26,801 nt of DNA, taken from a virus. The number at the start of each line of letters is the position of its first letter. Within the stretch, counting starts at the first letter, position 1. This document shows positions 3,081 to 24,356 of this stretch, in pieces. Below the pieces are notes generated by a model. It saw nothing but the letters and a program-made list of their open reading frames with translations. It ran no database searches and was not told the DNA's origin. Where the stretch lies: IMG/VR virus record IMGVR_UViG_3300042515_002139, positions 1 to 26,801 of that record; one strand, written 5' to 3'. The translations under genes were made by a program, and so were the position numbers.

Positions 3081-3257
3081 TTATTTTTGCGTTCGGTGCA
3101 AAGCTTCTTCAACGCATTTTGCAATTCTCAAATCATATTCGGCACGTGCCTTATCGATCTGTCGCTGCCGATACATCTGCCAAGCCAATGCCGCTGACTG
3201 AGTCGCCAAGCAACAAGACGCAACGGCAGCAACAAAAACAATTGTATAAATCGGCAT
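3081..3257 (-). CDS. small single-TM protein with cationic tail
   Basis: The 58-aa protein MPIYTIVFVAAVASCCL... has one N-terminal hydrophobic segment (residues 4-27), then a charged helix rich in Arg, Lys and Glu. The ATG at 3257 is chosen because a GAGGA Shine-Dalgarno sequence lies about eight bases upstream. An in-frame ATG further upstream lies inside the neighbouring gene. Short, membrane-anchored and charged, it fits a holin, spanin or membrane-accessory role in the surrounding cassette. No homology-based name is possible. Confidence 0.6.
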   Translation of the reverse strand: MPIYTIVFVAAVASCCLATQSAALAWQMYRQRQIDKARAEYDLRIAKCVEEALHRTQK

Positions 3258-3259
3258 GA

Positions 3260-3382
3260 TTAGGTCCTCGGTGGAGCGTCGAAAAGCCAACGCAAATAAT
3301 CATCCAAAGTTATCGCGATCTGCCAAGGGTCTGGCCCCGAGATCAGAGGCTGAAACACTAGGTCCGAAAACCATTCGTACAT
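3260..3382 (-). CDS. 40-aa small protein
   Basis: This ORF starts at an ATG preceded by GGAGG at eight-base spacing, one of the better ribosome-binding sites in the cassette. It encodes MYEWFSDLVFQPLISGPDP and then an acidic/aromatic C-terminus. It ends just before the start of the next small membrane protein. It overlaps the nested ORF at 3300-3470 in another frame for 83 nt, so one of the two may be spurious or both may be made. Function is unknown. Confidence 0.45.
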   Translation of the reverse strand: MYEWFSDLVFQPLISGPDPWQIAITLDDYLRWLFDAPPRT

Positions 3383-3470
3383 CGCAAACCCTCCGTGGTC
3401 GCGGTGCGTACAGGACAACACTAACGGCCGCCGTCGCACCACAGACAACAAACAAAAAAAGAATATCCAC
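3300..3470 (-). CDS. 56-aa GTG-start membrane-anchored ORF, nested with its neighbour
   Basis: The GTG at 3470 shares its first base with the TAG stop of the upstream gene. It follows a GAGG Shine-Dalgarno at seven bases. The product begins VDILFLFVVCGATAAVSVVL, a clear N-terminal hydrophobic segment with a cysteine at residue 10, then an Arg/Pro-rich hydrophilic tail. It runs through the start of the 40-aa gene in a different frame. Overlapping short membrane proteins in different frames recall Rz/Rz1 spanin pairs, but that is only an analogy. Confidence 0.4.
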   Translation of the reverse strand: MDILFLFVVCGATAAVSVVLYAPRPRRVCDVRMVFGPSVSASDLGARPLADRDNFG

Positions 3471-3772
3471 TATCGGACCTCGGAGGGTGAGGGTTTGGCG
3501 GGGAGCCTATCACGCATAAGCTCGATAAACAATTCGCGGTCTTTGTCGTGCGATTCAACCATTTTGGTAATCGCTTCATTCTGCCGAGTAACTAAGTCGC
3601 TAATTCGTTGTGCAATTTCTTCCGATCGTTTCTTATCGACCTCCGGGATCAGGACAACCATTGAGTAGGCCAAAAACCCAAGTATACAGAATAACAAAAT
3701 GGTCGGCACGCCCTGCTGTGCAATCCATGCAGCGACAAGTTTTTTAGTGTCGTTGTCGAGCGGCAGATTCAC
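3470..3772 (-). CDS. single-TM coiled-coil protein (holin- or spanin-like)
   Basis: With the start at the GTG at 3772 the protein has 100 residues, beginning MNLPLDNDTKKLVAAW. It has one strong TM helix (PTILLFCILGFLAYSMVVLI, about residues 22-41). A long charged, coiled-coil-like region follows (KKRSEEIAQRISDLVTRQNE). The GTG overlaps the TGA stop of the preceding gene as GTGA and follows GGAGG by eight bases. A longer ORF from an ATG at 3895 would overlap the previous gene by 127 nt and is less likely. Topology fits a membrane protein of the lysis cassette. Confidence 0.65.
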   Translation of the reverse strand: MNLPLDNDTKKLVAAWIAQQGVPTILLFCILGFLAYSMVVLIPEVDKKRSEEIAQRISDLVTRQNEAITKMVESHDKDRELFIELMRDRLPAKPSPSEVR

Positions 3773-4236
3773 GGCCCCGCCCTCCGCGGTGCCACGGACG
3801 GAAGCGGCCCTGTCGGCTGCGATTGTGTGGCCGTCGTCCGTGACACCAAGGCGGAAAGGCTCGATAGACTGAGATGCCCGTTGTGCGTCATCCATGCACC
3901 ACCCGAATAGATGAAAAACTTTGGGTCTGCCATGCCGCTAAGGTCAACCGTTTTGATCTGCCATCCTTTCGATTCGCACTGTGCCGCTTCGTTGGCAAGC
4001 CATCGCCGACCGTATTCGCTTTGAGCATCGCCGACGAAAACGATCGTTGAGGTCGATCGGCTAACGGTTAGCGTGTTCGATTCGCGTTGCTGTTGTTCCT
4101 CAACGGCTTGCTGTACTTGTTGGTCGGCAATTTGGACCGCTTCGTCTTGATCGCGTTTTGATAAAAACGCCAAAACCAAAACGATAAGCACTAAAAACGT
4201 AGAAGCTCGAACGTATAGCTTCGAATCGCCGCTCAT
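3769..4236 (-). CDS. membrane-anchored protein with degenerate thioredoxin-like domain
   Basis: This 155-aa protein has a signal-anchor at residues 11-25 (ASTFLVLIVLVLAFL), a glutamine-rich coiled-coil linker (DQQVQQAVEEQQQRE), then a compact domain. The domain runs from TIVFVGDAQSEYGRRWLANEA to DPKFFIYSGGAWMTHNGHL. Its order of strands and helices resembles the two exported thioredoxin-like proteins upstream, but there is no CxxC. If the fold is right it is redox-inactive. It overlaps the Tad1-like gene by 4 nt and the next gene by 4 nt (GTGA). Periplasmic exposure is inferred from the anchor. Confidence 0.5.
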   Translation of the reverse strand: MSGDSKLYVRASTFLVLIVLVLAFLSKRDQDEAVQIADQQVQQAVEEQQQRESNTLTVSRSTSTIVFVGDAQSEYGRRWLANEAAQCESKGWQIKTVDLSGMADPKFFIYSGGAWMTHNGHLSLSSLSALVSRTTATQSQPTGPLPSVAPRRAGP

Positions 4237-4520
4237 TCCGTCGCCCCAAGTATCGGCACGCCGTCGGGCATTTTGCTGTTGGTTAACACCGCTTCGGCTT
4301 GCAAAAGGTAGCCAATTGCCATTGCGTTCTGTTGGTCCGCAAATGGCCCGCAGCGTTGCTCTGACTCCATTCTGCGACGGGTAACCGCGATCACGTCAAG
4401 CGGTGTAACGCCGTTTTCGCCTCGCCAATGAATAGACAAAACCTGTTCGCCCATGTTTACTGCCGTTGTTTTTCCGCTGCCGTCTTCGCGGTTAGTGCCC
4501 TGAAAGGTTATTCCGGTCAT
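4233..4520 (-). CDS. divergent Tad1/Acb2-like protein (candidate anti-CBASS/anti-Thoeris sponge)
   Basis: This 95-aa protein resembles the Acb2/Tad1 hairpin-domain proteins that phages use to sequester cyclic nucleotide or gcADPR-type immune signals. The recognisable order is ITFQ at residues 4-7, NGVTPLDVIAV at 36-46, GPFADQQNAMAI at 58-69, a helix with QAEAVL at 74-79, then GVPILG near the end. Members typically read NGVT...GPFACRENA...L.EA....RGVEG. Here Cys-Arg is replaced by Asp-Gln and the Trp/Arg-rich end of the second helix is missing. Ligand binding is therefore uncertain. It is coupled by ATGA overlaps on both sides, downstream of the papain-like protease gene. Confidence 0.5.
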   Translation of the reverse strand: MTGITFQGTNREDGSGKTTAVNMGEQVLSIHWRGENGVTPLDVIAVTRRRMESEQRCGPFADQQNAMAIGYLLQAEAVLTNSKMPDGVPILGATE

Positions 4521-5344
4521 GCTGCTATCGCTTTTGGTTTGACTCTTTGAATTGCAATTTGTTCGGCGGCTTTGGCCTTAGATTCGCGAAGCCACCCGCA
4601 ACCGTTCTGGCCCCAAGTAAGCTTCCAACTGTTGGCAAACTTTATCAAAAACTCATTGCCCTCAATCCCTGCACGAATGGCGTAAATCAAATGGCCCCAC
4701 CAATCTAGGCCGATCGTTACCGGTCGAGGCCATCGCGGATCAGTAAGAACCGACACAAGGGCCAATATATCCTTTTGCGGTAGTTCAAGCGATTGCGTGA
4801 TCTTATGGGCGATCGCGTTAACCTTAACCTCTTCGCGTTGCCAATTGCTCATCTGTGCTTGGTGTCCTGGCCACAAGCTTTCTTCTGGCATTCCAAACTC
4901 GTTTATACCCTTAATCGCCTCTTCGCCCCATCCTCCTTCGTTGCGGCCGTTCTTAATGCGGTACGCGGTCGCAAACGGGTTTAGATGCGGCACCGGTGCC
5001 CCGCTCATCGCGTAGGCGGTCATCATCGCACCGCCGACGCCGTAGCACCAACAATAGCCGTAGCCGTTTTGATCCAGGATCGGCACATCGGCAGAGATCC
5101 GCCAATCGTCTGGCGTTGTCTTTTCTTCGTCGGCTCGCTTGATGCGGTCGCGTAGCTTGTTGCGATCGCTTTCGAATTGGTATTGATAGAGCGGTCGCGA
5201 TGCTGACCCGAACGGCGATGCCGAGTAGTCGCGGGCCATGCCGCCGAACGTGTAGCCCTCCTGCCTCCATTGATCGACAAGCTTAGCCGCGTTGCCATCG
5301 TCGATGATGAGCGGGTTCGCCCCGAGGTCAGACTGGTAGCTCAT
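4517..5344 (-). CDS. papain-like (C1-type) cysteine protease
   Basis: This 275-aa protein carries a papain-family catalytic domain. The QNGYGYCW block supplies the oxyanion Gln (Q92) and nucleophile Cys (C98, followed by Trp as in papain). The EGGWGEEAIKGINEFGMPEES region near 136-156 matches the GG-helix and turn of C1 proteases. WWGHLIYAI supplies His218, and KFANSW supplies Asn238, followed by TWGQNGCGWL. There is no obvious signal peptide or long propeptide, though ~85 N-terminal residues precede the domain. It lies among small membrane proteins and exported thioredoxin-like proteins. Cleavage of a proteinaceous cell wall at lysis is a plausible role; virion protein processing is the main alternative. 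Confidence 0.8.
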   Translation of the reverse strand: MSYQSDLGANPLIIDDGNAAKLVDQWRQEGYTFGGMARDYSASPFGSASRPLYQYQFESDRNKLRDRIKRADEEKTTPDDWRISADVPILDQNGYGYCWCYGVGGAMMTAYAMSGAPVPHLNPFATAYRIKNGRNEGGWGEEAIKGINEFGMPEESLWPGHQAQMSNWQREEVKVNAIAHKITQSLELPQKDILALVSVLTDPRWPRPVTIGLDWWGHLIYAIRAGIEGNEFLIKFANSWKLTWGQNGCGWLRESKAKAAEQIAIQRVKPKAIAA

Positions 5345-5664
5345 CGATCACCCCACCGAAAAAAGCCCGACCTTTGACGCCATTCTCGGCCGTTCCAAAT
5401 GCGGGTGGTTGGGTAGCGTTCGGCTTTGCGTTCAATCACGAACACCTCATAACCATCGGCCCTGGCATCGACTAGCGTTTCGCGTTTCATCAACTCGCAC
5501 GGCGGACAACCATCCTTGCTGATCATGATCACCGAAGCCGAACTAACCTCGATGCCCGTGACCGGATCGCGAACGGCATCGACGCGAGATGCGTCGCCGC
5601 CAAACAAAAAAGCCGCTGTCACAATTGCCACTCCGAGCATCGCTAGCACTCCATCGCGTTCCAT
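5341..5664 (-). CDS. exported thioredoxin-like protein with CPPC motif
   Basis: This 107-aa protein has an N-terminal signal or anchor segment (residues 6-22) and a short thioredoxin-like domain. Its active-site motif GCPPC sits at residues 52-56 after strand SVIMIS. The helix CELMKRETLVD follows, then strand EVFVIE, and a probable cis-proline in RYPTTRIW (residues 83-89). A CxxC and cis-Pro in that order support a redox-active thioredoxin or glutaredoxin-type fold. Overlap with the protease gene (ATGA) suggests co-production. It may keep the protease cysteine reduced or act on envelope disulfides; both are inferences. Confidence 0.65.
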   Translation of the reverse strand: MERDGVLAMLGVAIVTAAFLFGGDASRVDAVRDPVTGIEVSSASVIMISKDGCPPCELMKRETLVDARADGYEVFVIERKAERYPTTRIWNGREWRQRSGFFRWGDR

Positions 5665-5667
5665 TGC

Positions 5668-6042
5668 TTATTTAACCAACCCCACCGCCGCATCCACCGA
5701 TTCCGGAACCCGATTAACGGTGATCCGCCCACTGCTGCTGACCACAATCGCCGGCGGCTTTTCGACCGCCTTTTTCATTTCGCCCCAGTAGCCCAACTGC
5801 GAAAAATCGTCCCGCCAATCTTGCGAAAGATACTTGCCGCCCGCTTTGTCGACCGCTTCCTTCAACCGCAACGAATTAGCCACGATGCCCTGGCTCTCGG
5901 TTACCTCTTGCGGCCGCGATCCGTCTTTTACGATCAACACCCACAGCCCGCCTTCGCCGCCTGCACCGCCAGCGGACCCACGAAACCAAACGGCCGCGGC
6001 CAAGAGCAACAGAGCGAAGCCGATTCGCGTTGTCTGATTCAC
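5668..6042 (-). CDS. exported small protein, possible thioredoxin-fold relative
   Basis: This 124-aa protein starts MNQTTRIGFALLLLAAAVWF, a good signal peptide or anchor, followed by a glycine-rich linker. The domain reads LWVLIVKDGSRPQEVTESQGIV, then a helix, SQDWRDDFSQLGYW, and PPAIVVSSSGRITVNRVPES. The strand-helix order and the PPAIVV segment in the cis-proline position resemble the neighbouring thioredoxin-like proteins. The active-site position has Ser-Arg-Pro instead of CxxC. It starts at an ATG overlapping the stop of the upstream gene and ends three bases before the CPPC gene. Function is unknown. Confidence 0.55.
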   Translation of the reverse strand: MNQTTRIGFALLLLAAAVWFRGSAGGAGGEGGLWVLIVKDGSRPQEVTESQGIVANSLRLKEAVDKAGGKYLSQDWRDDFSQLGYWGEMKKAVEKPPAIVVSSSGRITVNRVPESVDAAVGLVK

Positions 6043-6305
6043 GCTTTCGGCTCCGGCTTGCTGTCGTCAACAAACAAACGGGCGGCGGCCGTCCGTGCCG
6101 CCTTCGCGCCTTCCTCGTCGCCCGATGCTTCAAAGTGTTCGATCAACTGGCGAGACGCCACAACGAGCGAAATGAATTTCTTCTCTCCGCTCGCTGTAGC
6201 GTCTTTCCCCCAGATGCCCCCAACAAGGGAACGCAATTTGTCACCAAACAACACAACCGCCGCTCCCGCGGCTAATGCTGCCGGAATGTACTTTTCCCAG
6301 CTCAT
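6039..6305 (-). CDS. small single-TM protein
   Basis: The 88-aa protein starts MSWEKYIPAALAAGAAVVLFG, with one hydrophobic segment at about residues 7-20. A basic stretch and an amphipathic helical C-terminus follow, rich in Glu, Ala and Arg. It is coupled by ATGA overlaps to the two-TM protein upstream and the exported protein downstream. It may be a holin partner or antiholin. No family is recognised. Confidence 0.6.
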   Translation of the reverse strand: MSWEKYIPAALAAGAAVVLFGDKLRSLVGGIWGKDATASGEKKFISLVVASRQLIEHFEASGDEEGAKAARTAAARLFVDDSKPEPKA

Positions 6306-6493
6306 GCCGATGGCTCTTTGGTCTCAAGTGCCTTTCGCGCGATGTTGATCGCGACACTCGCAAACGCCGCGATCATAAGCAGCGTCGCGTTTCCGCTTTG
6401 CTGCATCGCCGGAACCAAAACCGTCGACGCATATGTCAATGCCGCCCCGCCGATCGCTATTGCCGCACCGCGGCCGATTGATGCCCAATCCAT
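6302..6493 (-). CDS. two-TM holin-like protein
   Basis: This 63-aa protein has two hydrophobic segments (about residues 9-28 and 38-52) separated by a short polar turn (AMQQSGNA), with a charged C-terminal tail (RKALETKEPSA). Length and topology are those of small class II-type holins. Context agrees: it lies in a run of membrane genes that also encodes a cysteine protease. No sequence family is recognised, so the holin call is topological. The start ATG overlaps the upstream stop by one base (TAATG). Confidence 0.5.
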   Translation of the reverse strand: MDWASIGRGAAIAIGGAALTYASTVLVPAMQQSGNATLLMIAAFASVAINIARKALETKEPSA

Positions 6494-6897
6494 TACTTTC
6501 CCTCAATGAGTTCGCGGATGTCTGCTGAATTGCCGAACGGGTTGCCGTCGCTCAACAGCCCGTTTTCTTTAGCCCACTGGTAAGCTTTCCAAATCAAAAT
6601 CACCAACTGCACCAAAAGATAGATGGTCGCCGGGTCCAGGTTGAACTTTCCAAACTTTTCGGAAAGTTGGCTTTGGAGTTCGTCGTCACCAAAAAAAGAC
6701 GCAACGCCGATCGACTCAAAAGCGACTTGGTAAGCCGCGTCGATATGCTCCTGGGTCAGCCCTTGCCGAACACACTCGGCTCGCTTGCGACGCACCTTAG
6801 CAAGCTCAATAGATTTTCGTAGGCGTTCAAGCACTTCGGCGACTCCAGGTAGAAAAGAGAGTACGCCGGATTCTAGCAGGCCAATGCGGTTTGTCAA
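6493..6897 (-). CDS. hypothetical protein with C-terminal hydrophobic segment
   Basis: This 134-aa protein is helical. A charged N-terminal half (EVLERLRKSIELAKVRRKRAE) is followed by a polar middle with FGDDELQSQLSEKFGKF. A hydrophobic helix (TIYLLVQLVILIWKAYQWA, about residues 94-112) and a short polar tail complete it. It could be membrane-attached, matching its neighbours in the cassette. It overlaps the end of the C5 methyltransferase gene by 4 nt. Function is unknown. Confidence 0.6.
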   Translation of the reverse strand: MTNRIGLLESGVLSFLPGVAEVLERLRKSIELAKVRRKRAECVRQGLTQEHIDAAYQVAFESIGVASFFGDDELQSQLSEKFGKFNLDPATIYLLVQLVILIWKAYQWAKENGLLSDGNPFGNSADIRELIEGK

Positions 6898-12454: not shown

Positions 12455-13480
12455 TCACTCTACTTCGCGGAAGCTATCGTGCTCCCAAGACGTATCGTCC
12501 GCATCGTCAAACGGAAGCATCGGAACGTTTTTCTTCTCCTCTTGCAATCGCAAGAAATTGCACCCGTGTTGCCAATATGATTCTTTCAATTCAACGCCCA
12601 CAAACTTTCGGCCGCACCTAAGCGACCCGACGCCCTCGCTACCGACGCCACCGAAAGGCGAAAACACGACGTCGCCCGGAAGCGTCCACAGGTCAACGGC
12701 ACGCTCTATCAACCCAAGCTGTAGCGGACAGATATGCTTCTCATCGTTTTCCGTTGTCGCCAGTTTGAAGTTTAGGACGTCCGTTTGATTGATATCCCAC
12801 CAAACCGGCTCCGCGTATCTTCGCCAAATATCGATCGACGGATCGGCCGCGTTTTTCTTGCGTGAAAACGGCGACGGGTGATTATCGTTTGAGCTTCCGG
12901 CCTCACCAATGTATCGCGCGAATCCCTTCGGCCTAACGATGGGCTTGTCGGACATCAAGCCGCTTCCTTCGCTTGGCGGCTTTCGAAAGACGATCAGATA
13001 ATCCGCCATACCTTGCCGCACCTGCGACGTATCACGCCTAACGGTCTTGTGGAGCAGTCCGTTATTGTTGGTCCGCTCGCGCTCCGTTACGGGGCATTTC
13101 CAGATCGTTACACGCGAATGAAAGACCCAACCAGCGGCCTCGAACTCCTGAATGCAAGCCCCAGGAAAGTCGATAAGCCCCGTCGTGCCGTAGACGTTCG
13201 CATATCGCGGTAAGTCCTTGCAATGGACCGCACAAAGGCGGCCCGGAACCGTCAGTCTGTAAAGCTCTTTAATCGCGAAAGCGTAGTGCCGAAAAAACTC
13301 TTCGTCGTTCGCTGCGTTGCCCATGTCGTTTTCTGAATCGCTGTAGATGTACAGCGAAGAAAACGGCGGCGAGTGAATGCAAAAGTCGATCGAGTTATCG
13401 GGCAAGTCCCGCATAAGGTCAACGCAATCGCCGTTGTAGAATGTCCAATCCGTTCCGTGCTGTTCGTTCATGCAACTCAT
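12455..13480 (-). CDS. DNA N4-cytosine/N6-adenine methyltransferase (SPPF type)
   Basis: This ~341-aa amino-methyltransferase carries its catalytic motif IV as HSPPF near residue 37, and SAM motif I near residue 280 (DVVFSPFGGVGSEG). IV before I is the beta-class order. ICPLQLGLIERAVDL matches motif X before I. SPPF/SPPY is often linked to N4-cytosine methylation but N6-adenine remains possible. Three in-frame ATGs exist. I chose 13480 because AGGTG lies six bases upstream, as for other genes here. It follows the SNF2-like helicase gene by one base, a common phage pairing. It probably protects phage DNA; no cognate nuclease is seen. Confidence 0.85.
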   Translation of the reverse strand: MSCMNEQHGTDWTFYNGDCVDLMRDLPDNSIDFCIHSPPFSSLYIYSDSENDMGNAANDEEFFRHYAFAIKELYRLTVPGRLCAVHCKDLPRYANVYGTTGLIDFPGACIQEFEAAGWVFHSRVTIWKCPVTERERTNNNGLLHKTVRRDTSQVRQGMADYLIVFRKPPSEGSGLMSDKPIVRPKGFARYIGEAGSSNDNHPSPFSRKKNAADPSIDIWRRYAEPVWWDINQTDVLNFKLATTENDEKHICPLQLGLIERAVDLWTLPGDVVFSPFGGVGSEGVGSLRCGRKFVGVELKESYWQHGCNFLRLQEEKKNVPMLPFDDADDTSWEHDSFREVE

Positions 13481-13481
13481 T

Positions 13482-14879
13482 TCATACACCTGCCTTTGAT
13501 TTTAAGAAACTAGGAATCGTCGGAACCGCCGACGCCGATAAACCGACCCTCATCAACTCGGCTTGATTGCCAAGTCCGAACTGCCTAACAACTTCCGCCA
13601 TCGACGCCTGCATCAAGCCGTGATCGGCACCCTTTCGGGCAATGCTCTTTTCGATGTTCGCATCCGCGTCGCTGCCGATGATATGAACCTTGACCGGTCG
13701 CGTTTGGCCAAATCTCCAAGACCTTCGAACGGCCTGATAATACTCTTCAAACGAAAACGAAAGCGACGCAAACACTTGCGTATTGCAAACCTGAAAGTTC
13801 AGCCCGACGCCAGCGATAGACGGCTTTGTCACCAACACCGGAAACTGCCCTTCGGCAAATCCTAAGAGTAGATCCTGCTTTTTCTTCTCCGGCATCGACC
13901 CGCGAACCTCAACAGCCCCGTCGACATGCTTCATCAGTTCCGAAGATTCGTAATCGGTGTAACACCAAACGATTGCCGGCCGCTCTGACTCACGCACAAT
14001 CTCCGCAACTCGCTTAGCTCGCTCGGTGTTGGTCCGCCGCTTTTCTTCGTGGATGTTCGTCGCCGAAATTCCTTCGACGTCGAATAGAAAGCCATCGGCG
14101 ACGCCATCATATGCAACGCTAACAATGTGTCGCTCAACGGTCAGTGGTGGCAAGATGTAGCCGTCGTCGCTAGCCCCAAGATCGGATGGACGCGAAAGAC
14201 AAACCGCCCACGAGGTTACCCATCGCCAAAAGTCCTTTTGAGCGTGTTTCTTCAAGCGGTAGCCGCCTGCTTTCATCGTGTCGTTGATAAACCAACGCGA
14301 AAGCATTTCGTTCGACGGCATGACCCCAAGAAAATCGGCGTGGTTGCCCAGCTCTTTGTGGTCATTGGGCGCCGGTGTCGCTGTGCATGCCAAGCGGTAT
14401 GGCGTTTCGCGATATGAGTCGATCAACTCTTGCTTGATCTTCCCGGTAAAATTTTTGAGGATCTGCGATTCGTCAAGCACAACCCCTGACCAAATCGAAG
14501 CGTCAAACTTGTGGAGCTTTTCGTAATTGATGAGGTTAATGCCCTCGACAATTTCACTCTGCTCATCGACCACGGCAACGGGCGTTTCGATGCCAAACTT
14601 TTCGGCCTCTCGCTTTGTTTGGGCTCGAATGCCAACTGGCGTATGAATCACAACCGGCCGCTTCGATCGCTTGCAAACCGCGTCAGCCCAGGCTAACTGC
14701 TGAATCGTTTTCCCTAGGCCAGTATCTTCAAATAAAGCCGCTCGGCCACGCTGTAGCGACCACTGGACGCATTTGGCCTGCCAGCCCTTTAGGGCCTTCG
14801 GAAGCTCGCCAACCGCAACCTCAAAGCCCAGCGGCCTTGCCGATCGCACCTTCGATCGGATGAATTCTTCGTAATCCAT
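13482..14879 (-). CDS. SNF2-like superfamily 2 helicase/ATPase
   Basis: This 465-aa protein has the full SF2 motif set. Q-region and motif I read GWQAKCVQW...EDTGLGKT (residues 32-58). Motif II is VLDESQ (134-139), motif III is TATPAPND (166-173), the domain-2 segment is AIVWCYTDYE, and motif VI is YYQAVRRSWRFGQTRPV. The DESQ box and RRxxRxGQ are SNF2-like. Such helicases are common in siphophage replication modules next to a methyltransferase, and may remodel forks or clear proteins from DNA. The gene follows leader 2 and a short GGTG Shine-Dalgarno. Confidence 0.85.
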   Translation of the reverse strand: MDYEEFIRSKVRSARPLGFEVAVGELPKALKGWQAKCVQWSLQRGRAALFEDTGLGKTIQQLAWADAVCKRSKRPVVIHTPVGIRAQTKREAEKFGIETPVAVVDEQSEIVEGINLINYEKLHKFDASIWSGVVLDESQILKNFTGKIKQELIDSYRETPYRLACTATPAPNDHKELGNHADFLGVMPSNEMLSRWFINDTMKAGGYRLKKHAQKDFWRWVTSWAVCLSRPSDLGASDDGYILPPLTVERHIVSVAYDGVADGFLFDVEGISATNIHEEKRRTNTERAKRVAEIVRESERPAIVWCYTDYESSELMKHVDGAVEVRGSMPEKKKQDLLLGFAEGQFPVLVTKPSIAGVGLNFQVCNTQVFASLSFSFEEYYQAVRRSWRFGQTRPVKVHIIGSDADANIEKSIARKGADHGLMQASMAEVVRQFGLGNQAELMRVGLSASAVPTIPSFLKSKAGV

Positions 14880-15716: not shown

Positions 15717-15889
15717 AGTCCCCTCGTCTCCCGCATCTGCCTCTCGATATCATCGGTCAGCCTTCCGTAGGCTTCCCGCGTCGCCCGTGCCGCCTGATAC
15801 TCCGCGACCCGCCGCGACAAGCCGCCGTCGTGCTCGGCAATGGCCGCACGCTCGCCGAAGTGCTCGGTGATGTCGTCATTCGTCGGCAT
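15713..15889 (-). CDS. 58-aa charged helical protein
   Basis: An ORF too short for most gene finders starts at an ATG six bases after GAGG. It encodes MPTNDDITEHFGERAAIAEH, then a helical Arg/Ala/Glu-rich stretch, ending RQMRETRGL. It overlaps the upstream gene by 14 nt and ends in an ATGA overlap with the T5orf172 gene. The tight coupling at both ends supports it. Function is unknown. Confidence 0.65.
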   Translation of the reverse strand: MPTNDDITEHFGERAAIAEHDGGLSRRVAEYQAARATREAYGRLTDDIERQMRETRGL

Positions 15890-16271
15890 TGGCGGCCTCT
15901 ATCTCTTCGGGGGTGGCTAGGCGGCAATAGACCCAAGAGGTAAGTTCGCTAAAATCTGACAATGCGGCAGCAAATCCATACTTTTCATTTGTTTTGCAAA
16001 CCAACACATAAGGACCCTGCCACCTCTGGTCGTGGTTATCCCGGCACATAACCAACTTCCGTTGCTTCGCGTCTTCGTCGGTTAGCTCCGGCTCTACCCA
16101 CGGCTTGCCGTCGTTCGTGCCGTATCGGGCTCGATCGCTAAGGCTCTCGTAGATCTTGTCCCAATACTCTCTGCCTTCTGGGAACAGGCTCCAGTCGCAC
16201 ATTTGCAACACTGCATTTGCTGCGCGCTGAATATCTTTTCTGTCGTTGTCGCTTAGCTTTCGCTGTGTCAT
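15876..16271 (-). CDS. conserved phage protein, paralogue 1
   Basis: This 131-aa protein is paralogous to the one at 23982-24356. Both share DGKPWV/DGRPYV, LTDEDAxQRxxVMxRDN, WxGPxxL, a KYGFAAAL/DYYTFTPSV-type strand and a C-terminal YCRLATPEEI/YCRCATPDEI. Similar short proteins occur in many phages. The pattern suggests a small beta-rich domain after a helical N-terminus. It overlaps the upstream gene by 4 nt. Function is unknown. Confidence 0.65.
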   Translation of the reverse strand: MTQRKLSDNDRKDIQRAANAVLQMCDWSLFPEGREYWDKIYESLSDRARYGTNDGKPWVEPELTDEDAKQRKLVMCRDNHDQRWQGPYVLVCKTNEKYGFAAALSDFSELTSWVYCRLATPEEIEAANADE

Positions 16272-22354: not shown

Positions 22355-22651
22355 TTAGTTGTCCGGCCACCGAACGCCCAACCGATCGAGCACGTCGGCA
22401 AGCTCTGTTGATGTTTGGTCGATCCACGCCTCGGCTGCGAAGTGGATCTCCGACAATGCGTGTTGGCATTCGTGGATCAGCGTATCGAGCACTTGCTTTG
22501 CCGACTGATCGTATCGCACTAAGATTAGCCTACGATCCCAATAGCAGATTCCTAGAGCGTTCGGCAGCTTCCTTCGCGTCACAAATTCAATCCGCCATTC
22601 CCGGCCGCCGAGAGTGCAATCAATGGCCGGCGGCTTGCGTCGCTTTACCAT
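22355..22651 (-). CDS. HExxH zinc metallopeptidase-like protein
   Basis: This 98-aa protein carries VLDTLIHECQHALSEI (about residues 54-69), an HExxH zinc site. Downstream acidic residues (EAWIDQTSTELADVL) could give the third ligand. The N-terminal half (IDCTLGGREWRIEFVTRRKLPNALGICYWDRRLILV) matches the strand-rich lobe of small phage SprT/ImmA-like metallopeptidases. Substrate is unknown. It overlaps the phosphoesterase stop by 7 nt. Confidence 0.7.
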   Translation of the reverse strand: MVKRRKPPAIDCTLGGREWRIEFVTRRKLPNALGICYWDRRLILVRYDQSAKQVLDTLIHECQHALSEIHFAAEAWIDQTSTELADVLDRLGVRWPDN

Positions 22652-23613
22652 ATTTTGCCCTCATGGATTCTTATGTTTTGTTCTTTCCAATGGCCTCTGC
22701 TGTCGAGGTCTAAAATAGCGAAGCCCTGACTCCACTGATTGACCAACGCGTAAGCCGGTGCCATGTCGCAGAGACAGCCCGTCGAAAAACACACCCAAGT
22801 TTTCCGCTTGTCGCCCGATGTTTCGATGTGCGTCGACGCTTGATGAAAGTGCCCCGCCATCGATGTCTGCCGCGTTCTGAGCCATAGCCCACGGGCCGGA
22901 TTTACGGCTGCCACAAGCCCTTTCGGTAGCTCGTGGCCGTGATAACAATTGAGCGTGCCGAGCGTGTAGAGCTGCTTCGACGCGATCATCTGCCACGATG
23001 AATCAAGGCCCAATTGATCGGCGAGCACTTTGCATAAATCCCACTTTGACATGCCGATCATCTGCGGGGCGTTTTCAAATAAATAGCTTTCGATCCTGTC
23101 TTCGTGGTTGCCGATTTTGTAATAGCAGTCGCCCGAGAAGTGCGGCCGAATGTCGGCAAGCCAACCGGCCAGCGTCTTGATTTCTTCATCGATGCTCCTT
23201 GCGTTTGGATCGCGTACCCACTTGCTCTGCTGGTAGGCGTCTAGCATGTCGCCATTGAGGATGAGGTGATCGCATCGCGACTCGATTCCGTGCCGAATTG
23301 CTTCGTCAATCGCTTGTGGGTCGTGATAGGGAAAATGGGCGTCGCTGAGAATCAAATAACGCCCTGGCTTGCGAATCGCAATTGTCGGTCGCGTCTTTCG
23401 CTTGGCTTTGGGTGCTTTTGGAATGATGGTATTTTCGTCGGCTCGTTTTTTGTTCGCGTACGTTTCGCCGCGATGGTATCGGATTAAATCGCGAGTCGAT
23501 TCAAATGCCGTGAAGAGTGCAGGGTAACGTGCGACAAGAAACTTCGCTATTTCCCGCGTAGGTCGGTCGGGTGCCTCAGAAATGGCGGCCCTGACTATGT
23601 CGGCTTTTCGCAT
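22645..23613 (-). CDS. calcineurin-like metallophosphoesterase
   Basis: This 322-aa protein has an N-terminal helical region of ~80 residues with an HTH-like pattern (TREIAKFLVARYPALF, STRDLIRYHR). The phosphoesterase domain follows. Metal-site motifs are SDAHFPYHD (residues 90-98), NGDMLD (120-125), GNHE (168-171), YHGHELP near 225 and GHFHQ near 255, the full calcineurin-like set. Substrates could be DNA ends or small phosphoesters. GGAGG lies four bases before the start. Related proteins are common in phage replication or accessory regions. The N-terminal DNA-binding-like domain is unassigned. Confidence 0.85.
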   Translation of the reverse strand: MRKADIVRAAISEAPDRPTREIAKFLVARYPALFTAFESTRDLIRYHRGETYANKKRADENTIIPKAPKAKRKTRPTIAIRKPGRYLILSDAHFPYHDPQAIDEAIRHGIESRCDHLILNGDMLDAYQQSKWVRDPNARSIDEEIKTLAGWLADIRPHFSGDCYYKIGNHEDRIESYLFENAPQMIGMSKWDLCKVLADQLGLDSSWQMIASKQLYTLGTLNCYHGHELPKGLVAAVNPARGLWLRTRQTSMAGHFHQASTHIETSGDKRKTWVCFSTGCLCDMAPAYALVNQWSQGFAILDLDSRGHWKEQNIRIHEGKIW

Positions 23614-23796: not shown

Positions 23797-23985
23797 TCAA
23801 GCGTCGGGGGTGGCTGCCTCTGCCTTTGCCGCTTTGTCAAACGCAAGCAGTTTTGCGCGTAGCCTCTCAATCTCAATGTCAATCCGCGTAGGATCGTATC
23901 GCGATCCCCAACTGCATTGATAAAGAACCCGCCGCGTTTGCAACATTATTTCCAAATCTTTGACGATCTTGCCGCGTTCGCTCAT
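23797..23985 (-). CDS. small helical protein
   Basis: The ATG at 23985 overlaps the upstream stop (ATGA) and follows GGAGGTGGCGGA. The 62-aa product starts MSERGKIVKDLEIMLQTRRV and has a second charged helix (RIDIEIERLRAKLLAFDKAAKAEA). No family is recognised. A longer ORF to 24162 overlaps the next gene and is rejected. Confidence 0.6.
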   Translation of the reverse strand: MSERGKIVKDLEIMLQTRRVLYQCSWGSRYDPTRIDIEIERLRAKLLAFDKAAKAEAATPDA

Positions 23986-24356
23986 TCCGCCACCTCCAGC
24001 CCTGCCGAGGCGATCTCGTCTGGCGTGGCGCAGCGGCAATAGCGAAATCCAATGATGCCGCATACTGATGGCGTGAATGTGTAATAATCGCCGCCGCAAC
24101 AAGCCGCTAATGCTCGCGGCCCACGCCAGGGTTCTGCTTCGTTGTCCCGCACCATCACCCACGGCCTCTGCCGTGCATCCTCGTCCGTGAGCGGCGGATC
24201 TACGTATGGGCGGCCGTCGGTGGTGTTGTTGTAAATCATTCCAGCAAGAATGTCGCGGACGCCTTGCAATTCGCTTGAGACATTTCCGCTAATAAATAGC
24301 AATGCCCAAGCTTCGCTTATGCTTTTTTTCTCGCCGTCTGTCAATCGTCTTTGCAT
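23982..24356 (-). CDS. conserved phage protein, paralogue 2
   Basis: This 124-aa protein is paralogous to 15876-16271 (shared LTDEDARQRPWVMVRDN, WRGPRALA, YCRCATPDEI). It has a helical N-terminus and a Cys-Cys-Gly-Gly segment near the middle. GAGGACAAC precedes the ATG, and the hairpin at 24376-24393 lies just upstream. Function is unknown. Confidence 0.65.
   Translation of the reverse strand: MQRRLTDGEKKSISEAWALLFISGNVSSELQGVRDILAGMIYNNTTDGRPYVDPPLTDEDARQRPWVMVRDNEAEPWRGPRALAACCGGDYYTFTPSVCGIIGFRYCRCATPDEIASAGLEVAE

Follow-up and report, generated by a model that had tools for sequence, protein, structure and literature searches.

A papain-family protease among thioredoxin-like and small membrane proteins of planctomycete viruses: a candidate lysis module

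How might a phage lyse its host with a protease and no recognisable murein hydrolase? The question is raised by a gene cassette at positions 3,081 to 6,897 of the virus record IMGVR_UViG_3300042515_002139 (26,801 nucleotides). This whole 26.8-kb viral record, hereafter the window, carries nearly all of its genes on the minus strand, and in the cassette a papain-family cysteine protease lies among thioredoxin-like and small transmembrane (TM) proteins. An earlier note, written from the sequence alone, had proposed a protease-based lysis system with a redox partner, suited to a host with a largely proteinaceous envelope. Because a cytosolic protease stands beside small TM proteins, ahead of tail-fibre and terminase genes and with no recognisable murein hydrolase, the cassette is probably a lysis module if protein and peptidoglycan-peptide substrates are taken together. 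The narrower reading, in which planctomycete phages lyse their hosts by proteolysis, with the cysteine protease replacing the endolysin and an envelope protein as the substrate, is one that we favour tentatively, at slightly under an even chance. Three genes are central to it, with lengths in amino acids (aa):

4517..5344, minus strand: papain-family (C1) cysteine protease, 275 aa, with Gln92, Cys98, His218 and Asn238 and without a signal peptide
5668..6042, minus strand: 124-aa membrane-anchored protein of predicted thioredoxin fold, without CxxC, the constant partner of the protease
5341..5664, minus strand: 107-aa membrane-anchored thioredoxin-like protein with CPPC, between the CxxC-less partner and the protease

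The AlphaFold model of the window protease (mean predicted local distance difference test, pLDDT, of 93) confirmed the papain fold of the C1-type protease that had been read from the sequence. The top structural matches of the model were papain-family proteins only, the closest PDB structure being xylellain (3ois; Z 21.1, root-mean-square deviation 3.0 over 215 residues), while identity to solved C1 members was 13-20%. Against PF00112 the window protein scored 17.5 bits, below the cut-off of 20.7, as did its L001 orthologue (19.9); the orthologues in L005 (33.2), L003 (31.8) and L004 (26.6 bits) passed it. Q92, C98, H218 and N238 were invariant among 30 relatives with 18-72% identity, and this catalytic set made up 4 of only 10 invariant columns in the 30-sequence alignment. 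The ratio of nonsynonymous to synonymous substitution rates (dN/dS) was 0.12-0.17 in comparisons with unsaturated dS. A hydrophobic N-terminus or export signal was found in none of the 30 members. Procathepsins align with the model from about residue 6, and the N-terminal extension of the protease may run where their proregion runs. The protein thus shares with xylellain and the procathepsins the fold, the catalytic set and an N-terminal extension aligning with proregions, and differs from them in being phage-encoded, in having no signal peptide and in possessing a conserved N-terminal region of its own. In another locus, a second protein with a DCAVA motif, judged by eye and possibly of papain-like fold, was seen just upstream of the cassette (L025:8110-8964).

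In nearly all readable loci, the gene upstream of the protease, usually overlapping its start by 4 bp, encodes a protein that is exported or anchored at its N-terminus and has a CxxC-less thioredoxin-like domain at its other end; this linkage holds in members with as little as about 20% identity and in one Flavobacteriales metagenome-assembled genome (MAG). The window representative, the 124-aa protein, was modelled with a thioredoxin fold (pLDDT 84.5), and the Foldseek matches listed were thioredoxin-fold proteins (probability mostly 0.9-1.0, best E 2.5e-3), which gives this predicted fold moderate statistical support. The earlier note had named two CxxC-less thioredoxin relatives. The 124-aa protein stands as one of them on its modelled fold; the other, a 155-aa protein downstream of the protease, showed no sequence similarity to the 124-aa or 107-aa protein, and its sequence does not support it as a thioredoxin relative.

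In the exported CPPC protein, C53 and C56 were invariant in 5/5 relatives, a PT dipeptide (PTT or PTV) was kept at the cis-Pro position in the same number, and the protein had a weak Pfam Thioredoxin_2 match (E 0.03). A gene with CPPC, CAPC or CGPC adjoins the protease in the window clade, while in L005, L007, L008 and L010 an exported CxxC protein lies downstream of the protease instead; in L098, a CxxC protein (CIYC) after the protease passes the Thioredoxin_2 cut-off. In the G230 prophage, the papain gene is immediately followed by one whose product joins a trypsin-like domain (PF13365, E 1.5e-10) to a WCGPC segment with a weak thioredoxin match. Of all the signs linking proteolysis with thiol chemistry in these phages, this fusion is the strongest and, with the recurrent CxxC thioredoxins, it lends support to the suggested redox partner.

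The unit is conserved among related phages, where the earlier note had proposed to look for it. Besides 33 viral loci, two scans yielded three assemblies, namely the Flavobacteriales MAG and two MAGs of Planctomycetaceae. Many members have a two-TM protein upstream of the protease, and most have TM-plus-coil proteins downstream of it. In G230, a 3.02-Mb Planctomycetota contig carries the unit inside an integrated prophage that matches Phage_capsid_4 and Phage_portal_2. A genome search at E <= 1e-10 found it in at least 4 of 392 Planctomycetota genomes and at least 1 of 296 genomes in the phylum of the Flavobacteriales MAG, counts that are lower bounds because few candidates were scored per genome and that each include the seed genome. 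The cassette belongs to viruses of planctomycete bacteria, the bacterial assemblies being mostly Planctomycetota. No match was obtained when two diverse members were compared by tblastn with 50,697 deposited phage records, and an NCBIfam search gave nothing useful.

No muramidase, amidase or transglycosylase had been recognised in the window by eye, and Pfam likewise found no peptidoglycan hydrolase there. A standard endolysin elsewhere in the genome had been named as an observation that would count against proteolytic lysis. Three related records carry direct terminal repeats and hence appear complete (G005, 70.9 kb; G028, 50.3 kb; G032, 37.0 kb), and among the matches listed for their open reading frames (ORFs) of 80 aa or more there was no Pfam peptidoglycan hydrolase; these scans covered all but a few ORFs spanning sequence pieces and parts of one 2033-aa protein, and in two of them the matches listed represented 25/28 and 25/26 families. 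In G005, the papain gene appeared to be the only plausible lysis enzyme among the matches listed. Nor was a Pfam peptidoglycan hydrolase found in the close relative G001, an almost whole genome running from HNH to terminase, or in the G230 prophage, and none of seven families (Amidase_2, Phage_lysozyme, SLT, M15_4, NLPC_P60, CHAP and M23) was present in 27-34 records.

The gene order of the close relatives G001 and G004 bears on whether the protease could instead mature the capsid. In both, replication genes are followed by the cassette, tail-fibre-like genes, HNH, terminase, portal, ClpP, capsid and tail, and after the tail genes come homologues of the right-hand genes of the window, which therefore represents a rotated section of such a genome. 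The cassette thus runs in the same direction into the tail-fibre/terminase operon; in lambda, the lysis genes also stand before terminase. Phage proteases often serve in capsid maturation, and a portal gene lies nearby in some members. However, in G001 and G004 a ClpP-like protease (PF00574, E 3.6e-21) already stands between portal and capsid, which makes a maturation role of the papain-like enzyme unlikely and largely refutes it in the window clade; given the membrane-protein context as well, we consider that role extremely unlikely. A separate candidate prohead protease (L076:15907-16545) was discarded, since it had no Pfam match and the ClpP match fits, by its position in the genome, the adjacent ORF L076:15252-15953.

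The remaining features of the cassette, with the promoter at its head, are as follows:

6870..6897, minus strand: sigma-70-like promoter sequence TTGACA-N16-TAGAAT with extended TG, about 33 nt upstream of the first cassette gene
6493..6837 (ORF listed to 6897), minus strand: first cassette gene, encoding a helical protein with a hydrophobic segment near the C-terminus (DPATIYLLVQLVILIWKAY)
6302..6493, minus strand: two-TM 63-aa protein, holin-like in size and topology only
6039..6305, minus strand: 88-aa protein with a weakly hydrophobic N-terminus and homologues in L001, L003 and L004
4233..4520, minus strand: 95-aa small protein with a weak match (E 7e-4) to phrog_2428, of unknown function
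3769..4236, minus strand: 155-aa protein anchored by a TM segment, in which the motif WxxHNGHxSL is conserved (22 columns invariant across 5 relatives)
3470..3772, minus strand: 100-aa protein with one TM segment and a charged helical tail, resembling a holin or i-spanin in topology only
3260..3451, minus strand: 63-aa ORF among the last small cassette genes, 54-76% identical to its counterparts in L001, L003 and L004
3081..3290, minus strand: 69-aa single-TM protein with a charged helical tail, 31-48% identical to its counterparts in L001, L003 and L004

Between 6897 and 3470, neighbouring genes share 1-4 bp or stand 3 bp apart. A predicted TM segment was present in 7/11 cassette ORFs, in line with the six or so small TM proteins first counted around the protease, compared with 3/46 other window ORFs (Fisher P = 1e-4, a descriptive value because the cassette was picked for its membrane-rich appearance). 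TTGACA-N16-TAGAAT was the sole 11/12 consensus match on either strand of the window, where 0.09 would be expected per shuffled strand. Both hexamers and their distance to the same first gene are retained in L001 and L002/L003 despite a diverged spacer, the form conserved across relatives being TTGACA-N16-TA[GC]AAT. The unique match and the retention of hexamers and distance despite the changed spacer are good evidence that a real promoter heads the cassette operon. The first gene has homologues at the same position in L001, L003 and L034, and the promoter sequence was not found upstream of the L034 homologue. As judged by alignment with L003, this gene probably starts at GTG 6837 rather than at TTG 6897, since the -35 box occupies 6897.

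The two-TM protein noted earlier as holin-like is thus the 63-aa product of 6302-6493; it has 78-90% identity to its counterparts in L001, L003 and L004 and is also found in L034, and its slot is filled by unrelated two-TM proteins in other members. The 95-aa protein has homologues in the window clade and TM-anchored versions in L005, L008 and L010, and it may resemble the Acb2/Tad1-type hairpin family. The 100-aa TM protein matched neither Pfam nor PHROG, and its dN/dS against L001 was 0.02.

In the course of events that we infer, the promoter would act late and drive the small membrane proteins, the membrane-anchored thioredoxin-fold protein and the protease, which, having no signal peptide, would accumulate in the cytoplasm. 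A small TM protein, either the two-TM 63-aa protein or a TM-plus-coil protein, would then act as a holin and release the protease, and the latter would take the part of a peptidoglycan hydrolase by cleaving envelope proteins in the periplasm. The exported CxxC thioredoxin could reduce disulfides of a cross-linked planctomycete protein layer or keep the catalytic cysteine reduced, and the CxxC-less partner could dock or control the protease at the membrane. The SDS (sodium dodecyl sulfate)-resistant envelope of Planctomyces is reported to be cysteine- and proline-rich protein that disulfides stabilise (PMC3035269). In its fullest form, in which proteolysis and disulfide reduction of a cross-linked protein envelope bring about lysis with no peptidoglycan hydrolase and with the thioredoxins as dedicated lysis factors, the proposal is doubtful.

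Several observations weigh against proteolytic lysis. Planctomycetes are not peptidoglycan-free: they possess sacculi, and lysozyme with ethylenediaminetetraacetic acid disrupts their cells (PMC4432640). The largely proteinaceous envelope assumed in the earlier note is therefore correct only in part, and a phage would still need a way past peptidoglycan. A divergent or novel peptidoglycan hydrolase could have been missed by Pfam, as many phage genes are matchless. A search for holins and spanins by homology (PHROG, 65 queries) gave best values at chance level (0.007 for a holin, 0.0048 for an Rz-like spanin). CxxC was absent in all 27 homologues of the 124-aa constant partner, the role of which is therefore not redox chemistry. 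Finally, the unit follows the portal gene directly and precedes the tail genes in G005 and G015, and follows the capsid and head-completion genes in L006, which keeps a virion role alive.

The peptidoglycan of planctomycetes also favours the possibility that the protein is a C1-family endolysin that cuts peptide stems or cross-links of peptidoglycan, like the NlpC/P60 and CHAP enzymes of related fold. C1-like folds occur among predicted viral structures named 'Peptidoglycan binding-like' (A0A6J5MXS7) and 'N acetylmuramidase' (A0A8S5PQA2), suggesting C1 modules in lysin architectures, although these architectures rest on database names. However, the window family lacks both a peptidoglycan-binding domain and a second catalytic one, its nearest folds are the protein-cutting cathepsins and xylellain, and both the thioredoxin linkage and the trypsin-thioredoxin fusion point to protein substrates, so that we regard such an endolysin as unlikely. 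The gene positions in G005, G015 and L006 would in turn suit a virion-associated enzyme that opens a protein layer at DNA injection. Its constant partners, however, are small TM-anchored proteins, which would be unusual in tailed-phage virions, and the window-clade cassette stands apart from the head genes; the chance that the protease acts at entry is slim.

The membrane-rich make-up of the cassette could also reflect superinfection exclusion or surface remodelling, in which the host envelope is altered during infection or lysogeny, for example by receptor trimming. Many cassette products are anchored in the membrane and have predicted periplasmic domains, membrane-anchored or exported SNase-like proteins were seen by eye upstream in L019:7793-8461, L027:7924-8502 and L036:850-1509, and the unit is present in an integrated prophage. 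On the other hand, the cassette is co-directional with the tail-fibre/terminase operon that follows it, no regulator was recognised in it, and an export signal is missing from the protease in 30/30 members, all of which makes this explanation quite unlikely. The proposal of protease-based lysis is thus partly supported, by the failure to find an endolysin, by the improbable maturation role and by the redox link, with lysis itself the step that we infer.

Read as a proteolytic lysis module, the cassette resembles the lambda S-R-Rz holin-endolysin-spanin genes in its place before terminase in G001 and G004, in a cytosolic hydrolase without a signal peptide and in neighbouring small TM proteins of the two-TM and TM-plus-coil kinds. 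It differs in that its sole hydrolase is a papain-family protease with no peptidoglycan hydrolase recognised, in its membrane-anchored thioredoxin-fold constant partners, and in holin and spanin candidates that are such by topology rather than homology. PeiW and PeiP are pseudomurein endoisopeptidases (family C71) of methanogen viruses. Like these, the cassette would use a cysteine peptidase as the lysis enzyme on a host wall that is not ordinary murein; the peptidase family and the substrate are different, and PeiW and PeiP are not known to have thioredoxin partners. No description of papain-like phage lysins or of planctomycete phage lysis was found in the open-access literature. Phage lysis modules are known as such; what would be new here is the enzyme class and the thioredoxin partners, and the system would stand further from known lysis systems if peptidoglycan is truly not the target. 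If the reading is correct, this phage group has swapped a murein-cutting endolysin for a cathepsin-like protease with redox helpers. The phage would then show which layer has to be cut, giving a direct experimental handle on the long-debated question of how much of the planctomycete envelope is load-bearing protein. Planctomycetes, for which phage genetics scarcely exists, would also gain a tool for lysis.

Elsewhere in the window, a 98-aa protein with HECQH (22355-22651), also present in G001 and G004, had SprT-like and DUF6782 matches at E about 1e-3 and is a possible small metallopeptidase. A DNA methylase and helicase-like pair (12455-14879) is 97.6-98.1% identical to L002/L003, far above most other genes compared with these records (about 45-87%, or as much as 93% in a few short ones), and this points to a recent exchange of the pair. 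Paralogous small proteins with a DEDARQRPWVM-like motif are encoded at 15876-16271 and 23982-24356, with 11 copies in 5 records, and the metallophosphoesterase at 22645-23613 has full-length phage relatives that include those of Verrucomicrobia phage P8625 and Microcystis phage Mvi-JY20 (34-38% identity).

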